A DNA stretch of 54,266 nt from an uncultured bacterium (GTDB lineage: Bacteria; Bacillota; Clostridia; Oscillospirales; Oscillospiraceae). Below are positions 6,903 to 52,576 of the stretch, one piece after another; positions within the stretch are counted from its first letter, which is position 1; the number at the start of each line of letters is the position of its first letter. The stretch is taken from positions 74,595 through 128,860 of the forward strand of contig CAMNQF010000005.1 in the NCBI GenBank assembly GCA_946548895.1, read 5' to 3'. A program made the position numbers and the translations under genes. The notes below the pieces were generated by a model. That model worked only from the letters and a program-made list of their open reading frames with translations, searched no databases and had not been told where the DNA came from.

Positions 6903-6931
6903 ATTATACCATGTCTGTAAGCGTTACACAA
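6903..6931 (-). promoter_or_regulatory. Predicted sigma-A promoter of the cargo ORF
   Basis: On the minus strand TTGTGT (6926-6931), a 17-bp spacer and a perfect TATAAT (6903-6908), 34 bp before the ORF start and inside the inverted-repeat unit. Confidence 0.7.
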
Positions 6932-6964
6932 GGTGCGTCTTGGTGAAAATGCCGGAAGTATCGG

Positions 6965-6988
6965 CCATCAACACGAAAGGTAAAAGGG
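6965..6988 (-). repeat. Right terminal inverted repeat of the 583-bp unit
   Basis: Exact reverse complement of 6410-6433, followed after AC by the second copy of the 8-bp direct repeat GCCCCATT (6991-6998). Confidence 0.85.
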
Positions 6989-7005
6989 ACGCCCCATTTG
7001 CCCGC

Positions 7006-7034
7006 TTGACATTGGCGGCGGCGCGTAGTAGGAT
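7006..7034 (+). promoter_or_regulatory. Predicted promoter of the lipoprotein gene
   Basis: TTGACA (7006-7011), a 17-bp spacer and TAGGAT (7029-7034), 54 bp before the ATG. The 583-bp unit ends only 15 bp upstream of the -35, so the unit lies right beside this promoter. Confidence 0.6.
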
Positions 7035-7088
7035 AAAGTCTCAGCAATCCAACCTACCATCGGCGCCTAAAGGGCAGAAAGGACCATT

Positions 7089-11323: not shown

Positions 11324-12607
11324 TCAATTGCCCCCTTTCGTAATTTGGGCCAGAATCTCGTCGTCTGTGTAGTAGCGCGCCGTGGTATAGGTGCGCAGCT
11401 TGTTGCTGGAGGTGATGACGGGCATTTTGCCGCTGAGGGGGTTGTTCATATACATCAGCGGGCAGATGTAGCTGAGGATTACCCCAGTCTGCTTCAGCCG
11501 CTCCCCGTAGGGGGTGGCTTCGAACTCGCGGATCACCGCCGGGGCGGCGGTGAACACGGTGGGGATGGCCACCTTTTGCCTGCCCGCCTCCTTCAGGCCC
11601 CGCTCCACCCGTTCGGTCCAACTGGTGAGCTGTTCCAGGCTCATGTGGGGGCAGCCCATGAAGCACAGCTTGGGCTTGGCGTTCTTGTTCTTCCACACCA
11701 CCGGGTAGCTGTCGTACACCCGCTGGAGCTCCGCGTCGTCGATCACATAGGTCCGGGCCCCGTCCGCGATCAGCTCCCGGCCCAGCCGGGCCGCCTCGGG
11801 GGTGATGCCCTCCACGTGGTACAGCCCCACCGCGCCGTTGGAGGCGGTGGCCGCGCCGAAGTCCTTCAGGTAAGTCTTGGCCCCGTCGTCCAGACTGACC
11901 AGCCATTGGTCCAGCCCCACGATGTAGGGCACGTCCTCCATCACCTTCATGCCGATGGCGGAGCCCAGCAGCTGGGCCTCCGGCTTTTTGGTGGTTTTGA
12001 CCTCCACGATCCAGGTGGCGCGGCGCCCCTCGTCGGTGAGCAGGCCGAAGTAGGGCACGTACCCCACCACCGAGCCCATCAGGTCGATGATGCCCGAGTT
12101 GCGGTTGCACCGGGCCCCCAGCACCGAGTTGGCGTACACCACGGCGGAGGACTCCGACCAGGACAGCACGTCCCCCTCCTTGGGGGTGTTGCCCACCTGG
12201 TCCAGGTAGCAGGCGCAGGTGAACGCGTCCTGCTCCATCAGGCCCAGCTTGGAAAGCTGCTCCTCGTAAAAGTCCTGGCGTGTGTACATGAAGTTTTGGA
12301 ACACAAAGTTCTGCAAAAAGGAGCTGGGCACGTTCTTGTCCACCGGCCGGGGGTCGGCGGAGAACTTCTGCTTGGAGGCCGCCCCCTCGGCGATCAATTT
12401 GTCCATCAGTTCGTACACCGGCCCCAGGGCCTTCAGCCCGAAGGAGGTGACCAAATGGTTATACTGGCTGGTGACGGGCACCATGGACTGGGCCCCGAAC
12501 AGCTGGCCGTAGCGCACCAGGGTCTCCATCACCTTGGCCAGGGTCTCTCCCTTTTCGCCGTCCAGGATGGCCTGCTGCTCCTGGGTCAGCTTCATTTTCT
12601 CGCTCAT
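11324..12607 (-). CDS. Aconitase X catalytic domain, large subunit (DUF521)
   Basis: The 427-residue catalytic subunit would be a hydro-lyase, probably with a metal or Fe-S centre. The core signature WSESSAVVYANSVLGAR is present, followed by CNRNSG where many homologues carry TNREG. A second Cys pair lies in FTCACYL just before, and GCPHMSLEQL occurs near the C-terminus. These Cys are candidate cluster ligands. It lies 9 bp after the old-yellow-enzyme gene and 1 bp before the small subunit. Co-transcription with a flavin reductase suggests the dehydrated product is reduced next, a combination I do not know from characterised pathways. Confidence 0.85.
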   Translation of the reverse strand: MSEKMKLTQEQQAILDGEKGETLAKVMETLVRYGQLFGAQSMVPVTSQYNHLVTSFGLKALGPVYELMDKLIAEGAASKQKFSADPRPVDKNVPSSFLQNFVFQNFMYTRQDFYEEQLSKLGLMEQDAFTCACYLDQVGNTPKEGDVLSWSESSAVVYANSVLGARCNRNSGIIDLMGSVVGYVPYFGLLTDEGRRATWIVEVKTTKKPEAQLLGSAIGMKVMEDVPYIVGLDQWLVSLDDGAKTYLKDFGAATASNGAVGLYHVEGITPEAARLGRELIADGARTYVIDDAELQRVYDSYPVVWKNKNAKPKLCFMGCPHMSLEQLTSWTERVERGLKEAGRQKVAIPTVFTAAPAVIREFEATPYGERLKQTGVILSYICPLMYMNNPLSGKMPVITSSNKLRTYTTARYYTDDEILAQITKGGN

Positions 12608-12616
12608 ATGCCCTCC

Positions 12617-14674
12617 TTAAATCTTCATGGCCGCCTCGTAGGCGCCCCAGACCACGGTTTTCACATTGCCCACCCGCTTGCAGTCGCCCACCAGGTGGAT
12701 GTTGCGGCCCTTGCCCTCCAGGGGGTTGGGCAGGTAGCCCACCGAGCTGATGACGCTGTCGCAGGGGATTTCCACCGGTTTGCCCTCCTTGTCCTGACAG
12801 AGGACCTTGTCCTCGTGGACGGCGGTGAGGGTGGTCTCCAAGTGGACGGGCACCCCGTGGAGGGCGAACCACTCCCGCAGGTAGGAGCTGTTGGCCAGGC
12901 AGACCCCCTTCTGGGCCACCAGGTCGTTTTTCATCTCGATGATGACGGGCTCCTTGCCCTGGAGGGCCAGCTCATAGGCGATTTCGCACCCGGTGAGCCC
13001 GCCGCCGACGATGGCCACCCGGTGGCCGACTTCCTTTTCGCCGTTCAGGTATTCCATGGCCTCCACCATGCGCTCGTGGCCGTGAATCCCCCGCAGGGCG
13101 ATGGGCGCCGCGCCGGTGGCGATGATGACCTGGTCGGTGCCGAAGCGGGTGATATCTTTGACCTCCGTGTCAAAATGGATCTCAATCTTCATCTGGTCCA
13201 TCTGGCGCTCATACCAGGCCAGCAGGTCCCGGAGCTTGCCCTTGTAGGACTCCGCCCCGGCGGCGATGAACGCCCCGCCCAGCCGGCCGGTTTTTTCGTA
13301 GATGATGGGCTCGTGGCCCCGGAGCTTCAGCACCCGGGCCGCCTCCATTCCCCCCAGGCCGCCGCCGATGATATGGACCCGCTTGGGTGAAAACGCCTTT
13401 TCGATGTGGTGCTTCTCCCACTGCATCATCTCCGCGTTGACGGCGCACCGGGCCATATGGAGGCTGTCGTACAGATCCTGGTCGTTGGGCACGCCCTCGT
13501 AATGGCTCATGTTGAAGCAGCCGTTGTGGCACAGGATGCAGGGCCGGATGTCCTTCTCCCGGCCCTCCATCAGCTTGGTGACCCAGGCCGGGTCGGCCAG
13601 GAACTGCCGGGCAAAGCCCGCGCCGTCCAGCCGGCCCGCCTGGATGGAGTCCGCCGCCGCCCGGGGGTCCAGCCGCCCGGCGCACACCACCGGGATGCTC
13701 ACAAACTTCTTGATATGCTCTACGTCGGCCAGGTTGCAGTTCTCCGGCATATAGATGGGCGGGTGGGCCCAGTACCAGGCGTCGTAGGTGCCGTTATCGC
13801 AGTTGAGCATATCGTACCCCGCGTCCTGGAGGTATTTGGCCGCCCGCTCCGACTCTTCCAAATCCCGGCCGGCCTCCACAAAGTCCTCGCCGGGGAGGGC
13901 CCCCTGGCGGAAGCCCTTGGTCTTGGACACCACGCTGTAGCGCAGGGAGACGGGGAAATCCTGGCCGCAGGCGGCCTTGATGGCCTGGACGATCTCCACC
14001 GGGAAGCGGTAGCGGTTCTCAAAGGAACCACCGTACTGGTCGGTGCGCTTGTTGACGTATTTCAGGGTGAACTGGTCCAGCAGGTAGCCCTCGTGGACGG
14101 CGTGGACCTCCACCCCGTCCACCCCGGCGTCCTGGAGGAGCTTGACGGTCTGGGCAAAGGCGTCCACGAACTCCCGGATTTCCGCCGCCGTCATTTCCCG
14201 GGAGGGCACCTTGTCCGACCAGCGGTTGGGGGAGGGGCTGGCGGTGGCGGTGATCTTGTCCAGGTCCATAAAGGGCTTGGACAGGAGGCGCAGGGCGGGA
14301 TTGGAGTACAGCGTCTCCATCATGGAGCTGATGGTAAAGGACCGGCCGAAGCCCGCGGTGAGCTGGACGAACAGCTTGGCCCCGGTCTTGTGGAACTCCG
14401 GCATCCAGGCCGCCAGGTCCCGGTACATCTTCTTGTTTTTGTGCAGCCACTGGCCGAACATGGGGTTGTACACCGGCTGGCAGCCGGGGAGGACCAGCCC
14501 CGCGTTGTTCTGGGCCGCCTCCAGGATAAACCGGGCCCCGGCTTTGTCAAAGTGGTTTTTCTCCATCCAGCCCAGCAGGTCCGTGCCCCCCATGGAGGTG
14601 AGCACTACCCGGTTTTTGATCTCGCAGTTTCCGATGCGCCACGGAGTAAATAACGGCTTCAATCTTTCGTCCAT
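12617..14674 (-). CDS. NADH:flavin oxidoreductase / 2,4-dienoyl-CoA reductase-like enzyme
   Basis: This 685-residue, two-part enzyme has an old-yellow-enzyme TIM barrel with FMN (about 1-380; motifs GVDGVEVHAVHEGYLL, YGGSFENRYRF). The bridge, CILCHNGC and a later ARCAVN, should hold a 4Fe-4S cluster. A FAD/NAD(P)-binding half follows (Rossmann signatures IIGGGLGGMEAA near 440 and AIVGGGLTGCEIA near 560). The layout matches FadH, BaiCD/BaiH and related ene-reductases that reduce activated C=C bonds. It is first in the six-gene operon, so it may reduce the unsaturated product of the aconitase X dehydratase. Confidence 0.85.
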   Translation of the reverse strand: MDERLKPLFTPWRIGNCEIKNRVVLTSMGGTDLLGWMEKNHFDKAGARFILEAAQNNAGLVLPGCQPVYNPMFGQWLHKNKKMYRDLAAWMPEFHKTGAKLFVQLTAGFGRSFTISSMMETLYSNPALRLLSKPFMDLDKITATASPSPNRWSDKVPSREMTAAEIREFVDAFAQTVKLLQDAGVDGVEVHAVHEGYLLDQFTLKYVNKRTDQYGGSFENRYRFPVEIVQAIKAACGQDFPVSLRYSVVSKTKGFRQGALPGEDFVEAGRDLEESERAAKYLQDAGYDMLNCDNGTYDAWYWAHPPIYMPENCNLADVEHIKKFVSIPVVCAGRLDPRAAADSIQAGRLDGAGFARQFLADPAWVTKLMEGREKDIRPCILCHNGCFNMSHYEGVPNDQDLYDSLHMARCAVNAEMMQWEKHHIEKAFSPKRVHIIGGGLGGMEAARVLKLRGHEPIIYEKTGRLGGAFIAAGAESYKGKLRDLLAWYERQMDQMKIEIHFDTEVKDITRFGTDQVIIATGAAPIALRGIHGHERMVEAMEYLNGEKEVGHRVAIVGGGLTGCEIAYELALQGKEPVIIEMKNDLVAQKGVCLANSSYLREWFALHGVPVHLETTLTAVHEDKVLCQDKEGKPVEIPCDSVISSVGYLPNPLEGKGRNIHLVGDCKRVGNVKTVVWGAYEAAMKI

Positions 14675-39750: not shown

Positions 39751-41382
39751 TTATGCCATACCGTCCTTTTTCTCCATGCGGTTACGCTTGAGCAAGAGGA
39801 TGTCCTCCTTGCAGTAGCGGCGCATATACTCCAGCACCCGGTAGCTGAACAGCAGGCGCTCCCGCAGGATGGGGTCGTCCAGGCTTTGGCCGATGACGTC
39901 CTCAATTTTTCGGATCTTGTACAGCATGGTGTTGCGGTGAATGTACAGCCGTTTTGCCGCCAGGGCGGCGTTGCGCTCACAGCACAGGTACTCGTACAGC
40001 ACGTCGGTGAGGTTGCCGCCGGTGCGCTTGTCGTCCATCACCATGGCGATGAGGGAGGGGTGGCACAGGTGGACGATGTTCCGGCTGCCCATCTCCTGGC
40101 GGAGCATCTGGGCGGCCATCTCCACCACCTGATACATACTGTAGTCCTCATAGACGTAGATCCGCTTGTCCGGGTCCAACACTTGTCCCAGCCGCAGGGC
40201 GCTTTTGGTCTGGTAGTACATGGTGGGCATGGACGTGAGGAACTCGGAAAAATTGCCGAAGGCGGCCCGGCCGTCATAGCGTTCCAGCAGCTGCCTTAAA
40301 GCCTCCTCATTATAGCGCGGGCGGTGGCCCCGCTGGGTCTTTCGAATAATCAGCAGAATTTCTCCGCGGTAGGTTGTGGCGTTGCTGAACGGGAAAATAT
40401 GCTCCAGCAGGCTGATGATGTAGTTCCAGGGGATATTTTCCATGTCAGGCTTGTCTCCGAACGAGACGATCATCGTGTGGTAGTACCGGCGCACGGCCAG
40501 ATGGATCTGCTTGAGCCGCTGCTGCAGTTCCTCCGGCTCGGTAAGGCGGAATTCGATGAGGTCGGAGACCAGGCTGCCGAACGCGGCGTTGCTGTTGTAG
40601 TCCACGCCCTGATTGCTGAACATGAACTGGGAGAGGTACCCGGCCACAATTTTGGCCAGGTCGGAGTAGTATTGATCGGGCTGCCGCCCGCTGCGGATGA
40701 CCAGAAACCGGGCGGCCAAGGTGTCTTGATAGGTGATATCGCGGATCACAACGTAATTCTGGTCCGCCTCTGAGACGAACTCCACAAATCCTTCTTTCCG
40801 GCCGCCCTGGAGGACCGTCTGGCAGCGGGTGGACTGAATGGTGTCAAAAGACAGGTAGCCGTTTTCCCGCGCTTCGTCGGCCACCCGGTCGGACATCTGA
40901 GGGTGATACGCCGCGGCCAGGCACTTATAGCCGGGATTGACCAGCAGGAGGGTGGCGGGCAGGAGGGAGGACGCCCGCTGGAGCAGTTCCTGAAGGCCGG
41001 CGTTGGTATACACCGCCTCCTGCATCTGTTCCATCCAGGCCGTGAAGCGGCGCAGCCCCTCATGCAGGCGGTTGTAAAGCGCCGCCAGGGAGAGGCTGGT
41101 CTCCACCAGCGTTACCCTGGGGGGCGGCCCGCCCTCCCCGCAGGCGGGGCCGCCCGCGCAGGAGACGACCGCCGCCCCCTCTTTGGGCACAGCGCCCATG
41201 GTCAGCGCCTGGGACACCTGTTCCGGGCTGCCCAGGTACAAAAAACCGGGGCGCAGGGGCTCCTCCGACGGTTCCAGCAGACGGATGCCGCCTGTGCAGG
41301 CGGGGAAGGGGAAGCCCTCATGCAGCCGGACGGCTGCGCCGTCCAGCCAGCGCAGCAGGATAGGGAGGGTGAACGATTCCAT
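39751..41382 (-). CDS. PucR-family transcriptional regulator
   Basis: The 543-residue cytoplasmic regulator has the PucR C-terminal helix-turn-helix (RNAALAAKRLYIHRNTMLYK split around LAAKRL, about 478-500, then EDVIGQSLDDP). A middle region has CdaR/GGDEF-like character, and a divergent N-terminal sensor domain is present. PucR proteins typically activate purine, sugar-acid or aromatic catabolism genes on binding a substrate. The second of two in-frame ATGs (41382) is chosen because AAAGGAG lies at proper spacing only for it. It diverges from the transporter-dehydratase-esterase cluster, which it likely controls. Confidence 0.85.
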   Translation of the reverse strand: MESFTLPILLRWLDGAAVRLHEGFPFPACTGGIRLLEPSEEPLRPGFLYLGSPEQVSQALTMGAVPKEGAAVVSCAGGPACGEGGPPPRVTLVETSLSLAALYNRLHEGLRRFTAWMEQMQEAVYTNAGLQELLQRASSLLPATLLLVNPGYKCLAAAYHPQMSDRVADEARENGYLSFDTIQSTRCQTVLQGGRKEGFVEFVSEADQNYVVIRDITYQDTLAARFLVIRSGRQPDQYYSDLAKIVAGYLSQFMFSNQGVDYNSNAAFGSLVSDLIEFRLTEPEELQQRLKQIHLAVRRYYHTMIVSFGDKPDMENIPWNYIISLLEHIFPFSNATTYRGEILLIIRKTQRGHRPRYNEEALRQLLERYDGRAAFGNFSEFLTSMPTMYYQTKSALRLGQVLDPDKRIYVYEDYSMYQVVEMAAQMLRQEMGSRNIVHLCHPSLIAMVMDDKRTGGNLTDVLYEYLCCERNAALAAKRLYIHRNTMLYKIRKIEDVIGQSLDDPILRERLLFSYRVLEYMRRYCKEDILLLKRNRMEKKDGMA

Positions 41383-41510
41383 AGCCATCTCCTTTGAGCG
41401 GGGTGAGAATGTGTTGAAGATACAGCGATTTTTATTATATTCGATGATTTTTAAAAAATCAAGCGGGGCGGTCGCCAGAAAGGCTTCGGCTCTTTGGCTC
41501 TCAGACACTC

Positions 41511-41718: not shown

Positions 41719-43080
41719 ATGTTATCTGCTGTTGGCTTTATCCTGGTTATTGCCATGGTGGCATTGATTATTTGGGGCCGGGTGGCTCTGCCCCCCATCC
41801 TCATCATCCTGCCCACCGTCGCCGTCATCATCCTGGGCCTGATGGGCTATCTGGTGCCGCCCAAAGCGGAGGCCGCCGCGCCCATGGACCTGCTCATGTG
41901 CTTCAAGACCCTCCAGACCTACCTGGGCTCCGGCCTGAGCAGCGTGCTGAACACCGCCGCCCTGTTCACCTTCGCCGTGGTGTTCTTCAACATCCTGGGC
42001 GACGCCGGTATGTTTGACTTCATCGTGTCCAAGGTCATGCGGTACATCGGCAACAACATCAGCCTGATCCTGCTGATGACCTGTCTGCTGTGCGCCATCT
42101 CCCACCTGGACGGCTCCGGCGCCACCACGATGCTGATTACCATTCCCACCATGCTGCCCCTGTTCAAAAAGATGCGTGTGAGCCCCGTGATCCTGCTGAT
42201 CTATGTGGGCCTGGTTTCCGGCGTGGAGAATATGCTCCCCTGGACTTCCGCCCTGGCCCGGGTTTCCGCCGCCACCGGCGTGGAGGCCCGCGAGATATGG
42301 ACCGCCCTGCTGCCCACCCAGATCGTGGGCATGGTGCTGCTGTTCGCCTCCTGCTTTGTGGTGGGCCCCATCCTGAAGAAAAAGGGCTTCGGCATGACCG
42401 ACGAGGAGTTCGCCGAGCTGAAGTCCGGTATGCTCAAGCTCAACGACCCTGTGCTGAAGGTCAAGAAGGGTGTGCTGTACTTCGACATCATTTTCACCGT
42501 GGTGCTGGTGGTCTGCCTGCTGATGGGCTGGATTAACACCAACGTGGCCTTTATGATCGCCCTGTCCATTGCCCTCATCGTCAACTGCAAGGACGCCAAG
42601 GAGATGACCTCCCAGATCCGCAAGCACGGCTCCACCGCCCTGAATATGGTCATGATTATCTTTTCCATCGGTATGCTGGTGGGCGTTATGAAGGAGTCCG
42701 GCATGATGAGCGCCATGACCGACACCCTGGTGGGCCTGATGCCTGAGTCCATGGGCACCCACCTGACCTTTATCATCGCCCTGCTGTCCGTTCCCCTGTC
42801 CATGGCCGTGGGCTCCGACACCCTGTATATGGTCATGGCCCCCATCTTCGGCAACATGGCCGTGGCCTTCGGCGGCACTATGCTGGCCGGCGCCGCCGCC
42901 TGCGTCATCGGCGCGTGCATCGCCGCCAACCTGTGCCTGGTGGCCCCCACCCCGTACCTGGCCCTGGGCCTGGCCGGCGTGGAGATGAAAGACAACCTGA
43001 AGTACTGCTTTATCCCCACCTGGATCCTGGGCATCCTGCTGGCCATCGTGGGCGCTGTCACCGGCGCGTTCCCCTTCTAA
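41719..43080 (+). CDS. CitMHS-type transporter (organic acid:cation symporter)
   Basis: The 453-residue protein has about twelve membrane helices and belongs to the ion transporter superfamily branch that includes citrate-Mg2+:H+ (CitMHS) and related carboxylate carriers. The helix-loop motif SHLDGSGATTMLITIPTMLP (about 130-149) and a mirrored AVGSDTLYMVMAPIF near 360 are the two re-entrant substrate regions. GAG-AGGAGAGG precedes the ATG. First in the PucR-linked cluster, it probably imports the carboxylate released by the surface esterase. Confidence 0.85.
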   Translation: MLSAVGFILVIAMVALIIWGRVALPPILIILPTVAVIILGLMGYLVPPKAEAAAPMDLLMCFKTLQTYLGSGLSSVLNTAALFTFAVVFFNILGDAGMFDFIVSKVMRYIGNNISLILLMTCLLCAISHLDGSGATTMLITIPTMLPLFKKMRVSPVILLIYVGLVSGVENMLPWTSALARVSAATGVEAREIWTALLPTQIVGMVLLFASCFVVGPILKKKGFGMTDEEFAELKSGMLKLNDPVLKVKKGVLYFDIIFTVVLVVCLLMGWINTNVAFMIALSIALIVNCKDAKEMTSQIRKHGSTALNMVMIIFSIGMLVGVMKESGMMSAMTDTLVGLMPESMGTHLTFIIALLSVPLSMAVGSDTLYMVMAPIFGNMAVAFGGTMLAGAAACVIGACIAANLCLVAPTPYLALGLAGVEMKDNLKYCFIPTWILGILLAIVGAVTGAFPF

Positions 43081-43172: not shown

Positions 43173-44342
43173 ATGAGCATTCGATCCTGCGCCCTGGAGA
43201 GCAGGGCCTTTGCCGCGCTGAAAAACGTGTACGACCACCGGGAGGAGGCTGCCGCCCGGTGGCGGGCCCAGGGCAAAAAGGTGGTGGCCGAGCTGGGCTG
43301 CGACGTGCCCGACGAGCTGGTCATCGCCGCCGGTATGCTGCCTGTCCGGGTGTACGCCGACCCGGAGAAGCCGCTGGACGAGACCAATAAATATCTGGAA
43401 TACGCCTTTGATCCCACCGTCCGCGCCCAGTTTGAGAAGATCGTGGACGGGACCTATCACAGCCAGGCCGACTACCTGGCCATCTCCAACAGCACCGACG
43501 TCATCATCCGCGTGTTTCTCTACCTGCGGGAGCTGAAGCGGGTGGAGCCGGACAAGCCGGTGCCGCCCCTGGCGTTTATCGACTGGCTGTTCACCCGCCA
43601 CCGCCTGCACCAGACCCGGGACGAGTTTGTGATCGGCCTGTTCAAGCGGCAGCTGGAGGAATGGGCCGGACGGGAGATCACCGACGAGCAGGTCCGCGCC
43701 GCCGGCCGGGTCTGCAATGAGAACCGGCGGGCCCTGCGGGAAATGGCCCGGCTCCGCCACGGGCGGGAGGTCCGCATCAGCGGCTCCGAGGCCCTGGTCA
43801 TCATCGGCGCCGGGCTGTTCATGGAAAAGGACGCCCACACCGCCCTGGTCCGGCAGGTGACGGAGGACGCCAAGAACTGGCCCGTCCTCACCGGCCCCCG
43901 GGTGTTTTACACCGGGGCCAACCAGGAGGACACCGCGCTGTACGATAAAATCGAGGCCGCCGGCATGGTGGTAGTGGGCGAGGACACCGACTGGGGCGAC
44001 CGACACTACGACCGGGACTACAATCCCGATTATCCGGTGATCCGGGGTGTGGTGGACCGCTACCTGCTGCGGGAGTACTCCGCCAAAAAGGCCACCGCCG
44101 CCCAGCGCGTGGCGGCTCTGGACCGGGAGGTGGACGCCGCCGGAGCCCGGGGCGTGATTTTCTACACCAACCAGTACGACGAGGTGGCCACCTGGGATAT
44201 GCCCGGCCAGCGCAGGAGCCTGAGCGCCCGGGGCATTTCCCATATCACCTTCGGACGGATGCAGTGGCCTGTTGATAAGAACGAGGGCCTGGATGAGAAG
44301 CTGGCCGGATTTGCGGCCGAAATGAAAGGGGGCGTCCAGTAA
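43173..44342 (+). CDS. 2-hydroxyacyl-CoA dehydratase-family subunit, cluster Cys replaced (HadC/HgdB-like)
   Basis: The 389-residue protein matches the beta-type subunit: ELVIAAGMLPVRVY near 47-61, a central ALVIIGAGLFM and the C-terminal GVIFYTN stretch. In HadC the three Cys holding the [4Fe-4S] cluster lie in FAC, GMCD and KFCD. By alignment from memory, the same places here are AFDP (about 79-81), NSTD (Thr108) and NQYD (Tyr335), so none is Cys. The fold is clear; radical dehydration by the known mechanism is not expected. ATG 43173 has AAAGGAAG upstream at long spacing; an ATG at 43149 lacks any site. Confidence 0.85.
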   Translation: MSIRSCALESRAFAALKNVYDHREEAAARWRAQGKKVVAELGCDVPDELVIAAGMLPVRVYADPEKPLDETNKYLEYAFDPTVRAQFEKIVDGTYHSQADYLAISNSTDVIIRVFLYLRELKRVEPDKPVPPLAFIDWLFTRHRLHQTRDEFVIGLFKRQLEEWAGREITDEQVRAAGRVCNENRRALREMARLRHGREVRISGSEALVIIGAGLFMEKDAHTALVRQVTEDAKNWPVLTGPRVFYTGANQEDTALYDKIEAAGMVVVGEDTDWGDRHYDRDYNPDYPVIRGVVDRYLLREYSAKKATAAQRVAALDREVDAAGARGVIFYTNQYDEVATWDMPGQRRSLSARGISHITFGRMQWPVDKNEGLDEKLAGFAAEMKGGVQ

Positions 44343-45694
44343 TGCCCGAGGAGAACAGAGCGCCCGCGTCCAAGTCCGCCGTGGTAAAAAAGCTGAAGGC
44401 GACGAAAGCGGCCGGCGCCTACCAGAAGGACTGGTTCTTCGCCATGAAGGAGCGGGTGGAGCGTGAGGGGTGCGATTTCGCCATCTTGAACGCCGACGTG
44501 CCCATGGAGATCTTCCGGGCCATGGACATTCCGTTTGTGGTCAACCAGTGGTGGGCCGCCATCTGCGGCGCCAAGCGGATGACCCGCAAATACTTCGGCC
44601 TGATGCAGGAGAACGGCTACCGCCCCGACCTGAACAGTTACGACGCCCAGGCCCTGGCGGAGAGCTTTGACCCGGACGACCACAAACTGGACGCCGAGGG
44701 AAATCCCATGGGCCCTTGGGGCGGCCTGCCCAAGCCCACCATCTGCATCACCCGGCTGACCGGCGATGTGCAGAATAAAATTTTCGGCCTGCTGGCCGAG
44801 AATTATGGGGCGGACCTGTATGTGATGGAGAACACCGTGGCCCGGAAGGCCCCGCTGAACTGGTATGAGCTGGCCGCCGACCGCTGGGAGGAATTGTACG
44901 ACACCGACCGCATCGACCTGGCGGTGGAGGAACTGAAGGAGCTCATCCGCTGGCTGGAGATGAAAACCGGCAGGCTGTTCGACATGAACAAGCTCCAGGA
45001 GGTTATGGACCTCATCAACGAGCAGGAGGGCTACTATAAAAAAATCCGGGACCTGATCGCCCAGTGCCATCCCGTGCCCGTCACCGTGGTGGACACCATC
45101 AACGCCGTGATGCAGGCCCAGTGGCAGCGGGGCACCCAGTGGGCCGTGGACCACGCCCGGGGCCTCTACGAGGAAGTTAAGGCCCTGGCCGACAGGGGAG
45201 AGGCCGCCGTGCCCAACGAAAAGCTGCGCATGATGTGGCTGGGCCGGGGTATGTGGCAGGATTTCGCCTTCTACCAGCGGTTTGAGGAGAAGTACGGTGC
45301 GGTGTTCATGTGGTCCATGTACCTGGCCATGGGGGCGGACGCCTACATCCGCAACCACGTGGAGCGGGACCCCCTGCGCGCCCTGGCCGCCCGGTTCATC
45401 GGCATGGAGGACTTCCTCCATATGCCCCCCTGGAACAGCAGCTGGTTTATTCAGCAGGCCAGGCAGAACGATATCGACGGCGTGGTGTACATGATTCCGG
45501 ACAACGATATTCAGGCGGTGGAGGGCAGCTACTTCATCAAAAAGTGCCTGGAGGACGCGGGCATCCCCGTTCTGGCTTTCCACGCCGACCCCGTCAACCC
45601 CAGGAAGTGGAATGCCGAGACCATGACCGGTCTGGTGGAGGAGTTCATTGAAAAACGGGTCATACCAAATAAGGAGAGAACATCAAGGTCATAA
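44342..45694 (+). CDS. 2-hydroxyacyl-CoA dehydratase-family subunit, cluster Cys replaced (HadB/HgdA-like)
   Basis: The 450-residue protein is the alpha-type partner: FVVNQWWAAICGAKRM near 65-80, NGYRPDLNSY, KPTICITRLTGDVQNKIFG split around LTGD, and GIPVLAFHADPVNPRKW near the end. HadB uses Cys84 (DLCAY), Cys117 (NNIC) and Cys346 (RSCK) as cluster ligands. The equivalents here are Asn98, Gly141 and Asp389. Together with the preceding subunit, all six ligands appear changed. The ATG shares one base with the previous stop (TAATG), so a heterodimer is very likely made. Confidence 0.85.
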   Translation: MPEENRAPASKSAVVKKLKATKAAGAYQKDWFFAMKERVEREGCDFAILNADVPMEIFRAMDIPFVVNQWWAAICGAKRMTRKYFGLMQENGYRPDLNSYDAQALAESFDPDDHKLDAEGNPMGPWGGLPKPTICITRLTGDVQNKIFGLLAENYGADLYVMENTVARKAPLNWYELAADRWEELYDTDRIDLAVEELKELIRWLEMKTGRLFDMNKLQEVMDLINEQEGYYKKIRDLIAQCHPVPVTVVDTINAVMQAQWQRGTQWAVDHARGLYEEVKALADRGEAAVPNEKLRMMWLGRGMWQDFAFYQRFEEKYGAVFMWSMYLAMGADAYIRNHVERDPLRALAARFIGMEDFLHMPPWNSSWFIQQARQNDIDGVVYMIPDNDIQAVEGSYFIKKCLEDAGIPVLAFHADPVNPRKWNAETMTGLVEEFIEKRVIPNKERTSRS

Positions 45695-45710
45695 TGAAAG
45701 GAGAAACCCT

Positions 45711-48221
45711 ATGAAGGCACTTCAAAAGCGTGTTTGGTCACTTCTCCTGTGCCTGACTGTCCTGATGTCGCCGCTGATGCTTCCGGCTTTCGCGGCGGAT
45801 GCGGGCGCCGTGTCCTTTCAGCGCTGGTCCTCCCAGGGCGTGTTCGGCGAAGACGGCGCGGTGGAGCCTCATGGAGTGGTGAGCCGGGCGGAGTTTGCCA
45901 TCATGCTGAACAATTTGATGGGCTATACCGAGCGGGCGGAGAACGCCTATGACGACGTGGACTCCGCGGACCATTATGCCGACGCCATCCTCTGCCTGAC
46001 CGCCGCCGGGGTCATGCGGGGCGACGGAAGCAGCGCTATGCCCAGCGGGGCGGTCAACCGGGAGCAGGCCGCCGTGATGCTGTGCCGAGCCTTCGGCATC
46101 ACCCCCTCGGCGGACGCGGAGCTGGCGTTCAGCGACGCCGGGTCAATTTCTCCCTGGGCCCGTGACAGCGCGGCGGCCCTTGCCCAGCGGGGCATGGTGC
46201 CGGGCGGCCGTTTCGCCCCCGCCCAAACGCTGGACTGGACTTCCCTGGCCGTCTTGCTGGACAGCGTGGTGGGCCGGTTTGTCAACGAGAAGGACGCCGT
46301 GATCACCGGGGAACAGTGGGGGGTCGTCATCATCGCCGCCGGCGGCGTGACGCTGGACGGTGTGGCAGCCACGGAAAACGTCATTGTTGCGCCTGCGGCG
46401 GCCGGAGCGTCCCTCACTGTCACCGGGACCTCTCAAATCGGGACCGTCATGGTGGGCGCCCCGGGCGTCAAGCTCACGATGGACACGGGCGCCCATGTGG
46501 AGCGGATCTCCGCCCTCTTTCCCGTAGAGGTGGAGGGCGGAGGCACAGTGGGCGTAACAGAGGCCCCCGCTCCCGTCAACCGGGCGGAGACCCCGCTGGG
46601 CACCTACACGGGCCGCCAGTTGAGCCGAGACCTGGTAAAGTATACCAATATCACCTACGCCACCTATGAGCGCTGGCAGCGGCCGGTGCGGGCTGCCTCC
46701 GCCAGCGCGGAGGACCTGGACGCCGCCGACCGGGAGGCCGTCATCACCAACCAGAGCCGCGGGCAGGCCATGGGCCAGGAGGGCGTCCTGACCATGGACG
46801 TCTACGTCAATCCCACCAGCACGAGGTCCAATAAGGGCGTGCTGGTGTGGAATACCTGCGGCGGCGGCACCAGCAGCAACAGCAACACCTTTAGCCCCGC
46901 CGACATCGTAAAGGAGAATCCGAACGTCATTGTGGCTGTGGTGAACATCCGCGTGGGCTACTTTGGCTGCATCGACCTGCGGGCCTTCTCCGATTACGAC
47001 AGCTATACCGTAAACGGCAAAAATCCTTACGACGCCAGCAATAACCTGATGCGGCTGGATTATCTGGAATCCCTCAAGTGGGTGCAGGCCAACATCGCGG
47101 GCTTTGGCGGCGACCCCCATAACGTTACCATCGGCGGGCAGTCCGCGGGCGCGGCCAACGCCTCCGCCATGCTCCTGATCGAGGAGGCCCACGACTATTT
47201 CCAGAAAGTGATTTTGGAGAGCGGCGTGGCCATCGACCGCATCTCCGTGGCTCCCCTGTCGGAGAGCGAATTCGCCGCCGGCCGGTTCCAGCAGTACGCC
47301 AAGGGGACCATGGACGGCCAGACCCCCGCGGCGGCGGACGAGGCCGACTATGTCACTACCATTCAGGAGGCCCTGACCCTGGGGCCGGACAGCTTCGCCA
47401 CTGCCCAGAGCGGCCTGAGCGTGGGCGGCGTGGGCGCTTATCCCAAGGGCTGCCAGGGCAAGACCTTTACCAACGTGGCGGACGGGGTGGTTATTCCCGT
47501 CACCACCGAGGAGCGCTGGGCCGCCATCGAAAAGGCGGCCGCGAAAGGGATCAAGATTCTGGTGGGCACCACCGGCGGCGAGTACGACCGCGACCTGGCC
47601 GGCAAGGACGCGGCGGCCGCCAAGGCCGATATCATGTCCGCCAACTGGGGTAAGCTGGCCGCGGAGGACCCCGCCACCGACCTGCCCGCCGTCAACGGCA
47701 AGGAGGCCAGCGCCGAGGCCGAGGCCCTGTTCCAGGCGTATGCCGCCCGTGGGCGGCGCGCCGGCACGGAATATGAACGGGACGAGGTCACCGCCTACAA
47801 GGATTTCAAGAACGACATCAATCAAAAGGTCAGCGCGGTGATGATCGCCGAGGCCTTCGCCCAAAACGGTTCCGACGCCTACCTGTTCTCCTTCGAGTGG
47901 TTTGCCCCCAACAAGGACGGCATCCGGGCGGGCCACGGATCGGAAAAGAACGCCCTGTACCCCGGCGCCCAGGGCTTTGCCGGCCCCGAGGAGCTGGGCA
48001 GGGCCATGCGGGAGGCGTGGGCCGCCTTTATCCTGGACGGCGACCCCAACCAGGGCAATGCCTGCTTCGAGGCGGCCCAGGTGGAGTGGAAGCCCTACAG
48101 AAAGGACGCGCCCAACACCATGGTGTTCGACGCCGAGATGGAGTGCGTGGAGGGCCAGCGGGTGGAAGACGTGGAGTCCCTGATGCCCCTGTTCGAGGAA
48201 TATCCCCTTCTGCGGGGATGA
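45711..48221 (+). CDS. Surface-anchored type-B carboxylesterase with SLH-like N-terminus
   Basis: The 836-residue secreted protein has a signal peptide (cut near AFAA, about 28). Two or three SLH-like repeats follow to about 190 (RAEFAIMLNNLMGY, NREQAAVMLCRAFG), then a short beta-rich spacer. From about 300 comes a type-B carboxylesterase with nucleophile Ser478 (GGQSAGA), an acidic residue Glu624 (TTGGEYDR) and His742 (AGHGSE). It should hydrolyse esters at the cell wall. The AAAGGAG site at 45698 supports the start. In the cluster its likely role is to free the acid that the transporter imports. Confidence 0.88.
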   Translation: MKALQKRVWSLLLCLTVLMSPLMLPAFAADAGAVSFQRWSSQGVFGEDGAVEPHGVVSRAEFAIMLNNLMGYTERAENAYDDVDSADHYADAILCLTAAGVMRGDGSSAMPSGAVNREQAAVMLCRAFGITPSADAELAFSDAGSISPWARDSAAALAQRGMVPGGRFAPAQTLDWTSLAVLLDSVVGRFVNEKDAVITGEQWGVVIIAAGGVTLDGVAATENVIVAPAAAGASLTVTGTSQIGTVMVGAPGVKLTMDTGAHVERISALFPVEVEGGGTVGVTEAPAPVNRAETPLGTYTGRQLSRDLVKYTNITYATYERWQRPVRAASASAEDLDAADREAVITNQSRGQAMGQEGVLTMDVYVNPTSTRSNKGVLVWNTCGGGTSSNSNTFSPADIVKENPNVIVAVVNIRVGYFGCIDLRAFSDYDSYTVNGKNPYDASNNLMRLDYLESLKWVQANIAGFGGDPHNVTIGGQSAGAANASAMLLIEEAHDYFQKVILESGVAIDRISVAPLSESEFAAGRFQQYAKGTMDGQTPAAADEADYVTTIQEALTLGPDSFATAQSGLSVGGVGAYPKGCQGKTFTNVADGVVIPVTTEERWAAIEKAAAKGIKILVGTTGGEYDRDLAGKDAAAAKADIMSANWGKLAAEDPATDLPAVNGKEASAEAEALFQAYAARGRRAGTEYERDEVTAYKDFKNDINQKVSAVMIAEAFAQNGSDAYLFSFEWFAPNKDGIRAGHGSEKNALYPGAQGFAGPEELGRAMREAWAAFILDGDPNQGNACFEAAQVEWKPYRKDAPNTMVFDAEMECVEGQRVEDVESLMPLFEEYPLLRG

Positions 48222-48273: not shown

Positions 48274-49503
48274 ATGGCTTGTAAAGGACCTCTTTCCGGC
48301 TATCGCGTGCTGGACATGACCCAATTTGAATCCGGCACTTCCTGCACCGAGACCCTGGCCTGGCTGGGCGCCGAGGTGCTCAAGGTGGAGCGCCCCGGCC
48401 GGGGCGAGCTGGGCCGCTATTCCCAGGCGGAGCCCGGCGTGGACACCTATGGCTTTCTGGTGATGAACATGAACAAGAAGTCCATCACCTGCAACGCCAA
48501 GTCCCCCGAGGGATTGGAACTGCTCAAGGGCCTGGTGGCCAAGTGCGACGTTATTGTGGAGAACATGGGGCCCGGCTCCATGGACAACCTGGGCCTCACC
48601 TACGAGGCCTGTAAGGAGATCAATCCCAAAATCATCTACGCCGGGCTGAAGGGCTTCTCCCAGTCGGGCCCCTACAAGGACTACCCCGCATTCGACCCCA
48701 TCGCCACCCACACCGGCGTCATGGTGTCCGCCACCGGCCTGCCCGAGCGGCCCATCAAGTGCGGCATCTCGGTGGCCGACTCCGGCACCGGCCAGATGCT
48801 GGCCCTGTCCATCATCGCCGCCCTGCTCCAGCGGGAACGGGAGGGCATCGGGCAGCGGGTGGATATCGCCATGCAGGACTTCATGATCGGCCTGAGCCGC
48901 AGCCAGTGGGAGCCCTACTACAATAACGGCAAGGTGCCCAACCGCCGGGTGGCCAACGGAATGCCCCTGGAGGATGTGGGCCCCTCCGACACCTACCCCT
49001 GCAAGCCCTTCGGCCTCAACGACTACGTCCATATCTACTGCTCCCGGGCCCCCGGCAGCAAGCAGTGGGACAACCTGTGCGAGGCCATTGGCCGGCCCGA
49101 TCTGAAGCAGGACGTATGCCCCGAAATGGCCACTCCCCGCCTGCGCTTCCAGAACCGGGAGATCTGCGACACCGCCATCAAGGACTGGCTGAAGGACCAC
49201 GACAAGTTTGAGGCCATGGAAATCCTTTGCAAGGCCGATGTGCCCGCCGGCGCCCTGCTCAGTGTGGACGACATCACCAACGACCCCCAGTACTACGCGC
49301 CTGACCGCCAGATGATGGTGGAGGTGGAGCATCCGCAGCGGGGCAAGGTGAAGCTCCCCGGCTTTGCCCCCAAAATGAGCGCCGTCACGGTGGAGTATGA
49401 GAGCAGCCCCGCGTTGGGCGGCAGCAACGGCGAGGTATACGGCGGCCTGCTGGGCCTGTCCGACGAGAAGCTGGCCGAGCTGAAGGAAAAAAGGGTCATT
49501 TGA
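48274..49503 (+). CDS. CaiB/BaiF-type (class III) CoA-transferase
   Basis: The 409-residue enzyme moves CoA from an acyl-CoA to a free acid. Class III features: RVLDMTQFESGTSCTETLAW, WLGAEVLKVERPG and the probable catalytic Asp in SVADSGTG (about 172). FldA (phenyllactate) and CaiB (carnitine) are relatives that load acids for HadBC-type or other dehydratases, so a CoA-recycling role with the neighbouring dehydratase-like pair fits. It is preceded by GGAGG at 48260-48264 and followed by a strong hairpin. Confidence 0.88.
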   Translation: MACKGPLSGYRVLDMTQFESGTSCTETLAWLGAEVLKVERPGRGELGRYSQAEPGVDTYGFLVMNMNKKSITCNAKSPEGLELLKGLVAKCDVIVENMGPGSMDNLGLTYEACKEINPKIIYAGLKGFSQSGPYKDYPAFDPIATHTGVMVSATGLPERPIKCGISVADSGTGQMLALSIIAALLQREREGIGQRVDIAMQDFMIGLSRSQWEPYYNNGKVPNRRVANGMPLEDVGPSDTYPCKPFGLNDYVHIYCSRAPGSKQWDNLCEAIGRPDLKQDVCPEMATPRLRFQNREICDTAIKDWLKDHDKFEAMEILCKADVPAGALLSVDDITNDPQYYAPDRQMMVEVEHPQRGKVKLPGFAPKMSAVTVEYESSPALGGSNGEVYGGLLGLSDEKLAELKEKRVI

Positions 49504-49613: not shown

Positions 49614-51191
49614 ATGCTGCCATTAGAACCTCTGACCGTAGGCGGACTGCTGCGCCGGACGGCGGGGCGGTTCCCGGAGCGGCCCGCCATGGAATACGCG
49701 GACCAGAGCTGGGACTACCGGGCGCTGGACGGCGCGGTGGACCTGTGGGCACGGCGGCTGCTGGCTGCTGGCGTCCGCAAGGGGGACCGGGTGGGGCTGT
49801 GGTGCGAGGCGGAGCCCAAGGCCATCATTGCCCTGTATGCCTTGACGCGGATCGGAGCGGTGTGCACCATGCTGAACACCAGCCTGAAAGGCCCTGAGCT
49901 CCAGGACCTGCTCCACGCCACCGAGGTCACCGCCCTGCTCATCGGGGACGGATACAAGGATGTGAGCTATCCCGAAGTGTGCCGGGGGCTGGAGGGCTGC
50001 GGGCTGCTGGAGCGGATTTGGTATATCGGCCAGGCCGGGTGCGGCGCGTTCCCCGCCCTGGAGGAGGCGGAACCCGCCCCGGAGGGGGAACTGGCCCGGG
50101 CGGAGGGGGCCGTCGTCCCGGAGGACACCGCCTTTATCCTCTACACCAGCGGCGCCACCAGCCGGCCCAAGGCGGTGATGGGCAGCCATTACAGCCGGGC
50201 CAACAGCGGCGTCATGCAGGCAGCCGACCTGGGAGCCTCTGAGGAGGATCGGTTCTGCGTGGCCATGCCTGTTTTCCACTGCTTCTGCCTGTCGGTAAAC
50301 GTGATGGCGGCCTGCGCGGCGGGGGCCTGCCTGTGCCTGCCCCGGTCCCGGCGGACCCGCGACCTGCTGGAGGCGGTGAGCGAAAAAAAGTGCACCATTA
50401 TGAGCAGTGTTCCCGCCCTGTTTCACGCCATGATTAACAGGGAGGACTTCGCCCAATGGGACCTGTCCTCTCTGCGGACGGGGTTTATCGGCGGCAGCCT
50501 GTACCCCCCGGAGCTGTTCCGGGAGATCGACCGAAAAATGGGTTTTACCCTGCTGTCCAGCCTGGGGCAGACGGAGGCCACGGCGGGCATCACTACCGCC
50601 TTCCTGGACGACTCCCTGGACGTGCGGGCGGAGACCATTGGGCATTTCATGGACCACCTGGAGGGCAAAATCGCCCGCCCCGGCACAGGGGAGCCGCTTC
50701 CCGTGGGAGAGGCGGGGGAGATCTGTGTCCGGGGCTATGTAGTCATGCAGGGTTACTATGGCCTGCCGGAGAGCACCGCCCAGGCGGTGGACGCGGATGG
50801 CTGGCTCCACACCGGCGACGTGGGATACTTGGACGAAAACGGCAATATTCACATGACCGGGCGGATCAAGGAGCTCATTATTCGGGGCGGGGAGAACATC
50901 AGTCCGGCGGAAGTGGAAAACGCCGCCGCTGCCTGGCCCTGCATCGACCGCTGCAAGGCGGTGGGAGTGGCCGACGAGCACTATGGCGAAGAGGTCTGCC
51001 TGTGCGTGATCCTGAAGGAGGGGATGGATTTGCGGGAGGAGGAGTTCCGCGCCTGGCTTGGGGCGCGGCTGGCCTCCTTCAAAGTCCCCCGGTATATCAT
51101 ACGGCTGGATGACTTTCCCCGGACGGCCACCGGCAAGGTGCGCCCGTCGGAGCTGAAAAAGCTGGCGGAGCGGCGGCTGGGATTCGTGTGA
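49614..51191 (+). CDS. AMP-forming acyl-CoA synthetase/ligase
   Basis: The 525-residue enzyme activates a carboxylic acid with ATP and CoA. The adenylate-forming core motifs are ILYTSGATSRPKAVMG (about 181-196), GWLHTGDVGYLDENG (about 400) and GRIKELIIRGGENISPAEVE nearby, and the C-terminal catalytic Lys in TATGKVRP. The layout resembles medium-chain/carnitine CaiC- or benzoate-type ligases. The GGAGGG site at 49601 gives the ATG. It provides an initial CoA charge for imported acid, complementing the CoA-transferase. Confidence 0.9.
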   Translation: MLPLEPLTVGGLLRRTAGRFPERPAMEYADQSWDYRALDGAVDLWARRLLAAGVRKGDRVGLWCEAEPKAIIALYALTRIGAVCTMLNTSLKGPELQDLLHATEVTALLIGDGYKDVSYPEVCRGLEGCGLLERIWYIGQAGCGAFPALEEAEPAPEGELARAEGAVVPEDTAFILYTSGATSRPKAVMGSHYSRANSGVMQAADLGASEEDRFCVAMPVFHCFCLSVNVMAACAAGACLCLPRSRRTRDLLEAVSEKKCTIMSSVPALFHAMINREDFAQWDLSSLRTGFIGGSLYPPELFREIDRKMGFTLLSSLGQTEATAGITTAFLDDSLDVRAETIGHFMDHLEGKIARPGTGEPLPVGEAGEICVRGYVVMQGYYGLPESTAQAVDADGWLHTGDVGYLDENGNIHMTGRIKELIIRGGENISPAEVENAAAAWPCIDRCKAVGVADEHYGEEVCLCVILKEGMDLREEEFRAWLGARLASFKVPRYIIRLDDFPRTATGKVRPSELKKLAERRLGFV

Positions 51192-51208
51192 GGAAGGGGC
51201 GGGCGCCT

Positions 51209-52576
51209 GTGGGCCTGTTTGTGAGGGACCGGGAATTTTACAAAAAGATATGGGTCATCGGCGGGCCCATCGCCGCCCAGCAGGTCATCACCGTGGGTGT
51301 CAACATGATGGACAACGTAATGCTGGGCCAGCTCAACGAGACGGCGCTGTCCGCCAGCGCGGCGGCTACCCAGGTTCACAGCCTGTTTCAGTTCATGGCC
51401 ATGGGGATGGGCATGGGGGCCAGTGTGCTCATCGCCCGGTACTGGGGAGCGGGAGAGACGCCCAGCCTGCGCAAGGCCCTCGCGCTGATGTACCGCTGCT
51501 GCCTGCTCATCTCGCTGGCCTTCACGGCGGTGGTGGGGCTGGCCCCCGCGCGGGTCCTGTCGCTGCTCACCCCCTACCCGGAGGTCATCGCCGAGGGTGT
51601 GCGCTATCTATACTGGGCGCTGCCCTGTTTCCTGCTGTTCGGCGCCTCCACCACGACCACCATCGTTCTGCGCAACCTGAAACAGATGCAAATACCCCTG
51701 TACGTATCCATCGGCGCGTTTTTCATCAACATCTTTTTCAACTGGATGTTTATTTTCGGCAAGCTGGGCGCTCCCGCCATGGGGGTGGCCGGGGCGGCGC
51801 TGGGCACCCTCATCAGCCGGTGCTTTGAATTCACTGCCATCTGCGGTTACTTCTTCCTGCTTGAAAAACAGGTGAGATTCCGCCCCCGGGACATCTTGGC
51901 CCCCTGCGGGGACCTGACCCGGGAATATCTGCGGATCTCACTGCCGGTGATGGTCAGCGATACCCTGCTGGGCCTGGGCAACAGCGTGACCATGTCGGTG
52001 GCGGGCCATATCAGCGACGTGTTTATGTCCGCCTATACCATCACCCAAGTAACCCAGCAGCTGACTACGGTGTTCACCAACGGCCTGGGACAGTCCGCCG
52101 TCATCATAACCGGCAACACCTTGGGCGGGGGGGACGCGGGCAAGGCCCAGCGGCAGGGTGTCACCTTCACTGCTTTGGGCTTCCTGCTGGGCGGCCTGTG
52201 CGGGGCGGTGATCGTGCTCATCAGTCCCGCGGTGGTGGGCAGCTACCGCATCCTGCCTGAGACCTATGCCGCCGCCATGGAGCTCATGAAGGCGGTGGGC
52301 GTGGTCACAGTCTTCATGGCTCCGGCCTCTATCCTCACCAAGGGTGTGCTGAGGGGCGGCGGGGATACCCGGTTTCTCATGGCGGCGGACGTGGTTTTTT
52401 TGTGGGTGGTGAGCGTTCCCATGGGGTATCTCGCCGGATTGGTGTGGCATTGGCCCCCATTCTGGGTGTTTTTATGCCTGCGGATGGACCATGTGATAAA
52501 AGCGGCCTGGTGCGTGTTCCGGCTGCGGAGCGGGAAATGGATCAAAAAAATCAAAACTGCCGGTGGGCCCGGGTAG
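51209..52576 (+). CDS. MATE-family efflux transporter
   Basis: The 455-residue membrane protein has the MATE twelve-helix pattern in two halves (GGPIAAQQVITVGVNMMDNV opening, then repeated TLLGLGNSVTMS in the second half near 250). It exports organic cations or drugs using Na+ or H+. GTG at 51209 is preferred, as AGGAAGGGG lies upstream; a GTG at 51188 overlaps the ligase stop and is an alternative. It reads with the ligase gene but may be a separate function, since a hairpin precedes the ligase. Confidence 0.88.
   Translation: MGLFVRDREFYKKIWVIGGPIAAQQVITVGVNMMDNVMLGQLNETALSASAAATQVHSLFQFMAMGMGMGASVLIARYWGAGETPSLRKALALMYRCCLLISLAFTAVVGLAPARVLSLLTPYPEVIAEGVRYLYWALPCFLLFGASTTTTIVLRNLKQMQIPLYVSIGAFFINIFFNWMFIFGKLGAPAMGVAGAALGTLISRCFEFTAICGYFFLLEKQVRFRPRDILAPCGDLTREYLRISLPVMVSDTLLGLGNSVTMSVAGHISDVFMSAYTITQVTQQLTTVFTNGLGQSAVIITGNTLGGGDAGKAQRQGVTFTALGFLLGGLCGAVIVLISPAVVGSYRILPETYAAAMELMKAVGVVTVFMAPASILTKGVLRGGGDTRFLMAADVVFLWVVSVPMGYLAGLVWHWPPFWVFLCLRMDHVIKAAWCVFRLRSGKWIKKIKTAGGPG

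Follow-up and report, generated by a model that had tools for sequence, protein, structure and literature searches.

A conserved gene pair of the benzoyl-CoA reductase/2-hydroxyacyl-CoA dehydratase family with all cluster cysteines replaced and a predicted non-radical function

Introduction

In the class I benzoyl-coenzyme A (CoA) reductase/2-hydroxyacyl-CoA dehydratase (BCR I/HAD) family, a well-studied example, catalysis relies on low-potential iron-sulfur (Fe-S) clusters and an ATP-driven activator. Since the beta-proton has too little acidity, elimination of an alpha-hydroxyl group beside the thioester is thought to require a ketyl radical, the electron being given by the cluster of the beta subunit and the activator (PMC11574389). 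The present work concerns two adjacent genes of this family, located in a stretch of 54,266 nucleotides (hereafter the window) from contig CAMNQF010000005.1 of an uncultured Oscillospiraceae bacterium (assembly GCA_946548895.1), whose products carry other residues at the positions of the cluster cysteines. The pair had been singled out in a first-pass annotation made from the sequence alone.

The closest described systems are known in structural detail. BzdNO, the catalytic dimer of a class I benzoyl-CoA reductase (PDB 8s02; PMC11971306), has the PF06050 fold in both subunits, like the window pair. In that report, the catalytic [4Fe-4S] cluster of BzdO is bound by Cys95, Cys128 and Cys380, and the double cubane of BzdN by Cys36, Cys73, Cys100, Cys263, Cys293 and Cys327; Glu65 of BzdO, which adjoins the Fe-bound water, serves as the acid/base, Tyr97, Tyr298 and Gln274 contact the thioester oxygen, and Arg267 and Arg290 of BzdN contact cluster sulfurs (PMC11971306). 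BzdN is the best PDB match of the window beta subunit (1.4e-26), and MbdO, BzdO and HadB are the nearest solved relatives of the alpha subunit (2.8e-12 to 5.7e-11). Unlike BzdNO, the window pair lacks the ligands of both the [4Fe-4S] and the [8Fe-9S] cluster and has Gln69 in place of BzdO Glu65, and a class III CoA-transferase adjoins it instead of an activator, none having been found next to the pair. The alpha and beta subunits also match HadB and HadC, respectively, of HadABC-I, the (R)-2-hydroxyisocaproyl-CoA dehydratase (PDB 3o3m). In comparison with the latter system, the window lacks the cluster cysteines and the activator and has a CitMHS carrier and a PucR regulator. The Had operon, as we take it to be composed, shares with the window a family III CoA-transferase beside the alpha/beta dehydratase pair. 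Family members whose new functions have been explained in published work by the loss of Fe-S sub-clusters all keep a cluster, whereas the window pair has ligands for none. A full-text literature search, which covered few subscription papers, returned no title or abstract describing cluster-free members of the family.

Results

Replacement of the cluster cysteines

The beta and alpha open reading frames of the window are intact and coupled, the TAA stop codon of the former sharing one base with the ATG of the latter at position 44342. Both products score far above the PF06050 cut-off of 28.4 bits (beta 148.6 bits, alpha 153.8 bits), in agreement with their first-pass assignment to the alpha and beta subunits of the dehydratase/reductase family, and the sequence blocks around the ligand positions are retained in both subunits, as had also been stated there. 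Asn98, Gly141 and Asp389 of the window alpha subunit align with BzdO Cys95, Cys128 and Cys380, and Asp80, Thr108 and Asp336 of the beta subunit with BzdN Cys73, Cys100 and Cys327; no cysteine occupies a ligand column of either subunit. The three alpha residues are those named in the first-pass annotation; in beta, its position 80 and Thr108 hold, and its Tyr335 lies one residue off and should read Asp336. The further double-cubane positions, BzdN Cys36, Cys263 and Cys293, are taken by Gly42, Asp273 and Ser303.

The rarity of such replacements was gauged in 61 genomes of the phylum, where 108 PF06050 matches were listed and 60 judged near full-length were taken for the cysteine columns. All three columns are kept in every one of these 60 other PF06050 proteins, whichever the subunit type. 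This survey was used in place of another one, in which at least 85 of 149 genomes matched among the best scores listed.

Distribution of the clade and order of cluster loss

Including the window, 19 pairs of this clade were found, two of which, L017 and L018, are near copies (the prefixes L, G and C denote loci, genomes and contigs). Scanning a genome collection yielded 14 loci. In 13 the alpha gene is complete or almost so, and 77-90% identical in the best segment; the fourteenth, L026, holds the end of an alpha gene and a CaiB gene on another contig of the assembly of L024. Profile searches added G170 (2 of 391 genomes of the class matched, the window's own included) and G486 (11 of 398 genomes of the phylum matched at 1e-20, the three best being the window, G170 and G486, below which the score drops from 664 bits to 97). 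G1077, G1080 and G1087 were added from the family of G170, in which 5 of 299 genomes matched, one of them being the genome of L024. Among 60 near relatives searched, the window genome among them, only the window genome gave a strong match. The clade is rare and scattered over the Oscillospiraceae, the Lachnospiraceae and the family of G486.

The replacement that the first-pass annotation saw in a single pair proved to be common to this conserved clade, the beta subunit lacking all six cluster cysteines in 19 of 19 pairs. At the three alpha columns, Cys-Cys-Cys is found in six pairs (L024, L042, L043, L063, L064 and L065), Asp-Ser-Asp in two (L022 and L023) and Asn-Gly-Asp in eleven, the window included. 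A hidden alternative cluster was considered and rejected on the total cysteine counts of several members: the alpha subunits of L017, L018, L020 and L021 contain two cysteines each in all, which rules out a three-cysteine cluster inside alpha, and the beta subunits of L016-L018 contain one.

A tree of alpha and beta was built with the ligand columns removed and rooted on seven canonical pairs, the branches of this outgroup being long and that of the pair on contig C29 the longest. In this tree the six cysteine-bearing rows form a grade; the cluster-free rows come together in a single clade (100/100), which alpha alone supports at 100/100 and beta alone at 90/100. Because six alpha subunits keep all three cysteines while no beta subunit does, the beta cluster was lost before the alpha cluster, and the simplest history is a loss of the former at the base of the clade and of the latter later, once. 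The ratio of non-synonymous to synonymous substitution rates (dN/dS) is 0.03-0.14 for alpha (8 of 11 chosen locus pairs with finite dS) and 0.02-0.35 for beta (9 of the 11), several of the dS values being near saturation, and the reading frames of the clade are open. The window pair is under purifying selection and shows no decay.

Conservation of the active-site pocket

Fourteen alpha residues are invariant in 19 of 19 pairs, whether the cluster cysteines are present or absent: Asn50, Asp52, Asn68, Gln69, Trp70, Trp71, Tyr100, Arg138, Thr140, Asp142, Arg302, Tyr327, Asn388 and Glu394. Among these, Tyr100 and Tyr327 align with the thioester-contacting Tyr97 and Tyr298 of BzdO; the canonical alpha rows (n=7) have tyrosine in seven at column 100 and in five at column 327. 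Arg302 aligns with BzdO Gln274 and represents a gain, since the seven canonical alpha subunits carry Ile, Leu or Met there. Column 69, aligned with the acid/base BzdO Glu65, is Gln throughout the clade, as opposed to Glu in 7 of 7 canonical rows. The beta cluster and the catalytic Glu were thus gone first, and the alpha cluster was lost later, in an otherwise little-changed pocket. Next to Tyr100, column 101 is Cys in all six cysteine-bearing alpha subunits and in both Asp-Ser-Asp members, and Asp in the other 11.

In the beta subunit, Arg277 and Arg300, which align with the cluster-contacting Arg267 and Arg290 of BzdN, are fixed in 19 of 19 pairs; they would face new carboxylates at positions 80, 273 and, in 17 of the 19 pairs, 336.

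The adjoining CoA-transferase and transporters

At each of the 19 loci a CaiB-type gene is found downstream of alpha. The window has an esterase gene between the two, at L019 the CaiB gene is cut by the contig end, and that of L024 lies on L026 (for L013-L026, the tblastn table served as the source of the cassette content). A near CaiB at E 1e-90 occurs in 2 of 381 genomes of the class, both of which have the pair. The window CaiB contains a CoA_transf_3 domain (303 bits), and its closest solved relative is YfdW/Frc, the formyl-CoA:oxalate CoA-transferase (PDB 1pqy, 1p5h; 2.5e-70). It scores 318 bits against the NCBIfam formyl-CoA transferase model, far under the cut-off of 504. Its Asp169 is aligned with the YfdW aspartate that we take to be catalytic, so that this residue is kept, and an ADSG/GDSG motif is present in 17 of 17 CaiB rows read, L043 and L065 among them. 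The glycine-rich loop of YfdW falls in an alignment gap.

A CitMHS gene adjoins the pair in 13 loci; that of the window scores 85 bits for PF03600, over the cut-off, and 204 bits for the citrate:proton symporter model TIGR00784, as against a cut-off of 259.7. A weaker PF03600 carrier is present in L021 (under the cut-off) and in L025, and other importers are represented by tripartite ATP-independent periplasmic (TRAP) genes in L043 and by an ATP-binding-cassette importer of peptide type in L064. No carrier gene was seen in the part of L024 covered, and L019 is too short.

The window CaiB is 85.3% identical to that of L042, a locus with a cysteine-bearing alpha, and 83.5% and 85.4% identical to those of the cluster-free L015 and L017, the L042 alpha subunit being only 71.7% identical to its window counterpart. 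The L042 transferase and those of cluster-free loci are equally close to the window's, an indication that the two kinds of pair share one substrate. The CaiB tree does not mirror the three alpha types: a clade of the nine Asn-Gly-Asp rows is rejected by the approximately unbiased test (p-AU 2.4e-5), because the window CaiB groups with that of L022. The transferase places the window with L022 (100/99) and rejects L022 with L023 (p-AU 0.002), whereas alpha and beta together place L022 with L023 (100/100) and reject the window with L022 (p-AU 0.00012); by alpha alone the window nevertheless neighbours L022 and L023 (89/93). Since the kin of the L022 pair is L023 and that of its CaiB is the window, each being rejected by the other data, the two cluster-free types have been exchanged between cassettes. 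Compared in 250-base steps, the DNA of the window and that of L022 show identities of 80-92% in CitMHS, 86-91% in CaiB, 67-83% in beta and 77-92% in alpha.

Activator genes and the second dehydratase copy

In agreement with the first-pass annotation, no activator gene was found in the window; the four PF01869 matches of the genome all lie on other contigs. With two activator sequences as queries, no activator homologue was found near the pair in the flanking DNA examined at 20 clade loci. Among control loci, an activator is present in 4 of the 8 not chosen for one (L044-L051) and in all 3 chosen with one (L053-L055); L052, obtained in like manner, did not enter the comparison. The window genome also encodes a canonical, cysteine-bearing pair with an activator (G000:C29:23246-26495, in L055), which falls on the canonical side of the 100/100 branch, where its own branch is very long. 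An intact copy of this kind had been expected, in the first-pass annotation, to mark the window pair as a drifting duplicate. The copy exists, but its relation to the window pair is that of a distant paralogue, and conserved relatives of the latter occur in other genomes; the window pair is therefore not such a duplicate.

Discussion

Taken together, the window pair is likely to be a conserved CoA-ester enzyme that works without an activator and has no Fe-S clusters. The first-pass view that it acts on a CoA thioester is supported indirectly, by the CoA-transferase adjoining it in 19 loci and by the thioester-contact tyrosines of all 19 pairs. Since the electron relay and the catalytic Glu were gone before the alpha cluster and the cassette has no activator, radical chemistry had probably been given up already in the ancestor of the clade. 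The best reading as a whole, to which we would give slightly less than an even chance, is that of a BCR I/HAD-fold heterodimer that abandoned radical chemistry and became an enolate-type, non-reductive CoA-ester enzyme. Hydration or dehydration as the reaction of the window pair is proposed tentatively.

For the window pair we infer the substrate class, the reaction, the heterodimer and the salt bridges as follows. The CitMHS carrier would import an organic acid, which is probably of the hydroxy-di- or tricarboxylic kind, and the CaiB-type transferase would convert it to its CoA ester, probably with the CoA ester of the product as donor. HadA takes the CoA ester of its pathway's product as CoA donor. 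With CaiB moving CoA from product to substrate, the imported acid could be converted without net use of CoA. The alpha subunit would hold the thioester oxygen by Tyr100, Tyr327 and the new Arg302 and carry out enolate-type chemistry, most likely a reversible elimination or addition of water, with decarboxylation, C-C cleavage and epimerisation as the next choices. The beta subunit would no longer relay electrons, its former cluster cavity being probably filled by carboxylates (Asp/Glu80, Asp273 and mostly Asp/Glu336) set against Arg277 and Arg300. The alpha cluster, which could still form in six relatives, would be at most a Lewis acid or structural, and could for that reason be lost to Asn/Gly/Asp or Asp/Ser/Asp with pocket and pathway unchanged.

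Several observations weigh against this reading. A single clade of the cluster-free rows is not rejected on CaiB (p-AU 0.181), which leaves room for a change of reaction together with the loss of the alpha cluster; a swap of cluster-bearing for cluster-free pairs in one cassette, first read from the CaiB tree, was dropped on the same value. Beyond the ligand columns, the cluster-bearing and cluster-free kinds differ at 17 alpha and 14 beta columns, so that some retuning accompanied the loss. Metabolic genes near the pair differ between loci (esterase, metallo-hydrolase, ligase, LarA-type isomerase and tartrate dehydrogenase), and the substrate class consequently rests mainly on the transporters and on CaiB homology. 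As to the activator, three of the four activator-bearing unchosen controls come from one genus, and all 7 genomes of relatives searched, as well as the window's own, encode PF01869 proteins elsewhere; its absence nearby is weak evidence and was not used alone. Apart from these points, column 272 of beta is His in just those six pairs that have the alpha cysteines and Thr in the other 13; as beta 272 and the alpha cysteines changed on one branch, this represents either one coincidence or a link.

Other explanations have to be weighed against a non-radical enolate enzyme that gains or loses water. Another non-radical reaction of the CoA ester, namely decarboxylation, C-C cleavage or alpha-carbon epimerisation, is unlikely, though a serious contender: the Tyr/Tyr/Arg arrangement around the thioester oxygen fits any enolate reaction and the neighbouring CaiB is of the formyl-CoA:oxalate transferase type, but the closest known relatives are dehydratases or reductases, and among the neighbour genes scanned neither a lyase nor a decarboxylase recurred as a partner. 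The alpha site might alternatively have become that of a Lewis-acid enzyme, with Asp/Asn98, Asp101 or Cys101 and Asp389 holding one metal (Mg, Mn, Fe or Zn) to activate the hydroxyl that leaves, in the manner of aconitase without its cluster; in the cysteine-bearing relatives this site may already be altered by the added Cys101, which completes a CxxC motif. Such a swap of metals accords with the distribution of Cys and Asp at column 101, where none of the 7 canonical alpha subunits has Cys, and with Asp at column 389 in 13 of 13 cluster-free rows; we nevertheless regard it as unlikely, given that column 141 turns to Gly or Ser and that the window alpha sequence has no His within 10 residues of the three columns.

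It is improbable that the pair is a pseudoenzyme, binding a CoA ester or the transferase in order to regulate or stabilise without catalysis. The window's lack of every catalytic cysteine and of the catalytic Glu, and the constant presence of CaiB downstream, would suit such a role, yet a scaffold is not expected to keep the substrate-facing columns that are invariant in the clade, and in 8 of 11 locus pairs conservation is higher in alpha than in CaiB (the exceptions being L042-L063, window-L022 and window-L042). Persistence of radical 2-hydroxyacyl-CoA dehydration, with the electron coming from a flavin or an otherwise bound cluster, is quite improbable, even though activators are encoded elsewhere in the genome and some dehydratases are described as also carrying flavin (PMC11574389): four alpha subunits have too few cysteines for a three-cysteine cluster, the beta cysteines are lost throughout, the catalytic Glu is lost, and no activator was found in the flanks examined. 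Decay of a duplicate of the intact C29 pair, which the presence of that pair and its activator in the genome might suggest, is barely credible. The beta loss is shared by 18 further pairs in other genomes, with low dN/dS, open frames and conserved neighbours, and C29 lies on the canonical side of the tree, albeit on its very long branch; the relatives in other genomes, the tree and the dN/dS values reject this explanation unless the whole clade is non-functional.

An enolate-type enzyme free of radical chemistry would also have a history of interest. We consider it possible, with considerable reserve, that a radical Fe-S lineage gave rise to an acyl-CoA enzyme free of cofactors (or using a hard metal), by way of an intermediate that still survives and has the alpha cluster alone, the job done in the same cassette being the same with or without that cluster. 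If so, redox work by the alpha [4Fe-4S] cluster of this clade had ended before the cluster disappeared. As each stage of loss is represented by living members, the way from a radical to a non-radical enzyme can be tested step by step. Naming these genes 2-hydroxyacyl-CoA dehydratase, or counting them as gut Fe-S enzymes, would mislead. For Clostridia of gut and rumen the cassette suggests a pathway of organic acids, no description of which was found in the literature searched.

Neighbouring genes and other features

The run of genes in the window comprises those for a PucR-type regulator on the minus strand, the CitMHS carrier, beta, alpha, an S-layer carboxylesterase, the class III CoA-transferase, an AMP-forming ligase and a MATE transporter (Table 1).

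Table 1. Coordinates of the gene pair, its replaced codons and the surrounding cassette in the window
Feature	Position	Strand	Remarks
Beta subunit (HadC/BzdN-like, PF06050)	43173..44342	+	Gly42, Asp80, Thr108, Asp273, Ser303 and Asp336 at the six BzdN cluster Cys columns
Alpha subunit (HadB/BzdO-like, PF06050)	44342..45694	+	Asn98, Gly141 and Asp389 at the three catalytic-cluster Cys columns; Gln69 at the catalytic Glu
Alpha codon 98, Asn	44633..44635	+	Cys in six relatives and in 60/60 surveyed family members
Alpha codon 141, Gly	44762..44764	+	Cys in six relatives and in 60/60 surveyed
Alpha codon 389, Asp	45506..45508	+	Cys in six relatives and in 60/60 surveyed
Beta codon 80, Asp	43410..43412	+	Asp or Glu in 19/19 pairs
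Beta codon 108, Thr	43494..43496	+	Thr or Asn in 19/19 pairs
Beta codon 336, Asp	44178..44180	+	Asp in 12, Glu in 5, Ala in 2 of 19
Class III (CaiB/formyl-CoA transferase type) CoA-transferase	48274..49503	+	Catalytic Asp169 motif; downstream of alpha in all 19 loci
CitMHS-type organic-acid transporter	41719..43080	+	Directly upstream of beta; homologue adjoins the pair in 13/19 loci
PucR/CdaR-type transcriptional regulator, divergent	39751..41508	-	Homologue in 13/19 loci
S-layer-homology and carboxylesterase protein, accessory	45708..48221	+	Homologous gene, among compared loci, only in L015 and L016
AMP-forming acyl-CoA ligase, accessory	49614..51191	+	Same place in L023, 68.5% identical
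MATE efflux transporter	51188..52576	+	Also 3' of the transferase in L016, L017, L018, L020, L022 and L023

At other loci, a tartrate dehydrogenase (TIGR02089, 500.8 bits, over the cut-off) is encoded at L065:14574-15644 (-) in the flank of a cysteine-bearing pair, where it adjoins a metallo-hydrolase and a second PF03600 carrier; this single case hints at the substrate class. Metallo-hydrolases are found in L021, L025 (the latter judged by eye only) and L065, and a nickel-pincer-cofactor-dependent isomerase of group 22 (508.8 bits, over the cut-off) lies downstream of the cassette at L020:13239-14597 (+). As each of the neighbours that might hint at a substrate occurs in one to three loci, no substrate is named. 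The most distant pair, that of L043, which also has the TRAP carrier, is flanked by genes for a corrinoid-binding protein and a URO-D-family methyltransferase-like protein at 1731-2477 (-) and 6446-7585 (+), and another URO-D-family gene is present in L042 (12167-13255). PGA_cap (CapA-like) genes lie, for no obvious reason, near the pair in two loci with cysteine-bearing alpha subunits, at L064:11201-12358 (-) and L065:1610-3951 (-). Elsewhere in the window, an Aconitase X gene (AcnX, 313 bits) at 11327-12607 (-) adjoins a gene for a flavoprotein of the old-yellow-enzyme type at 12620-14674.

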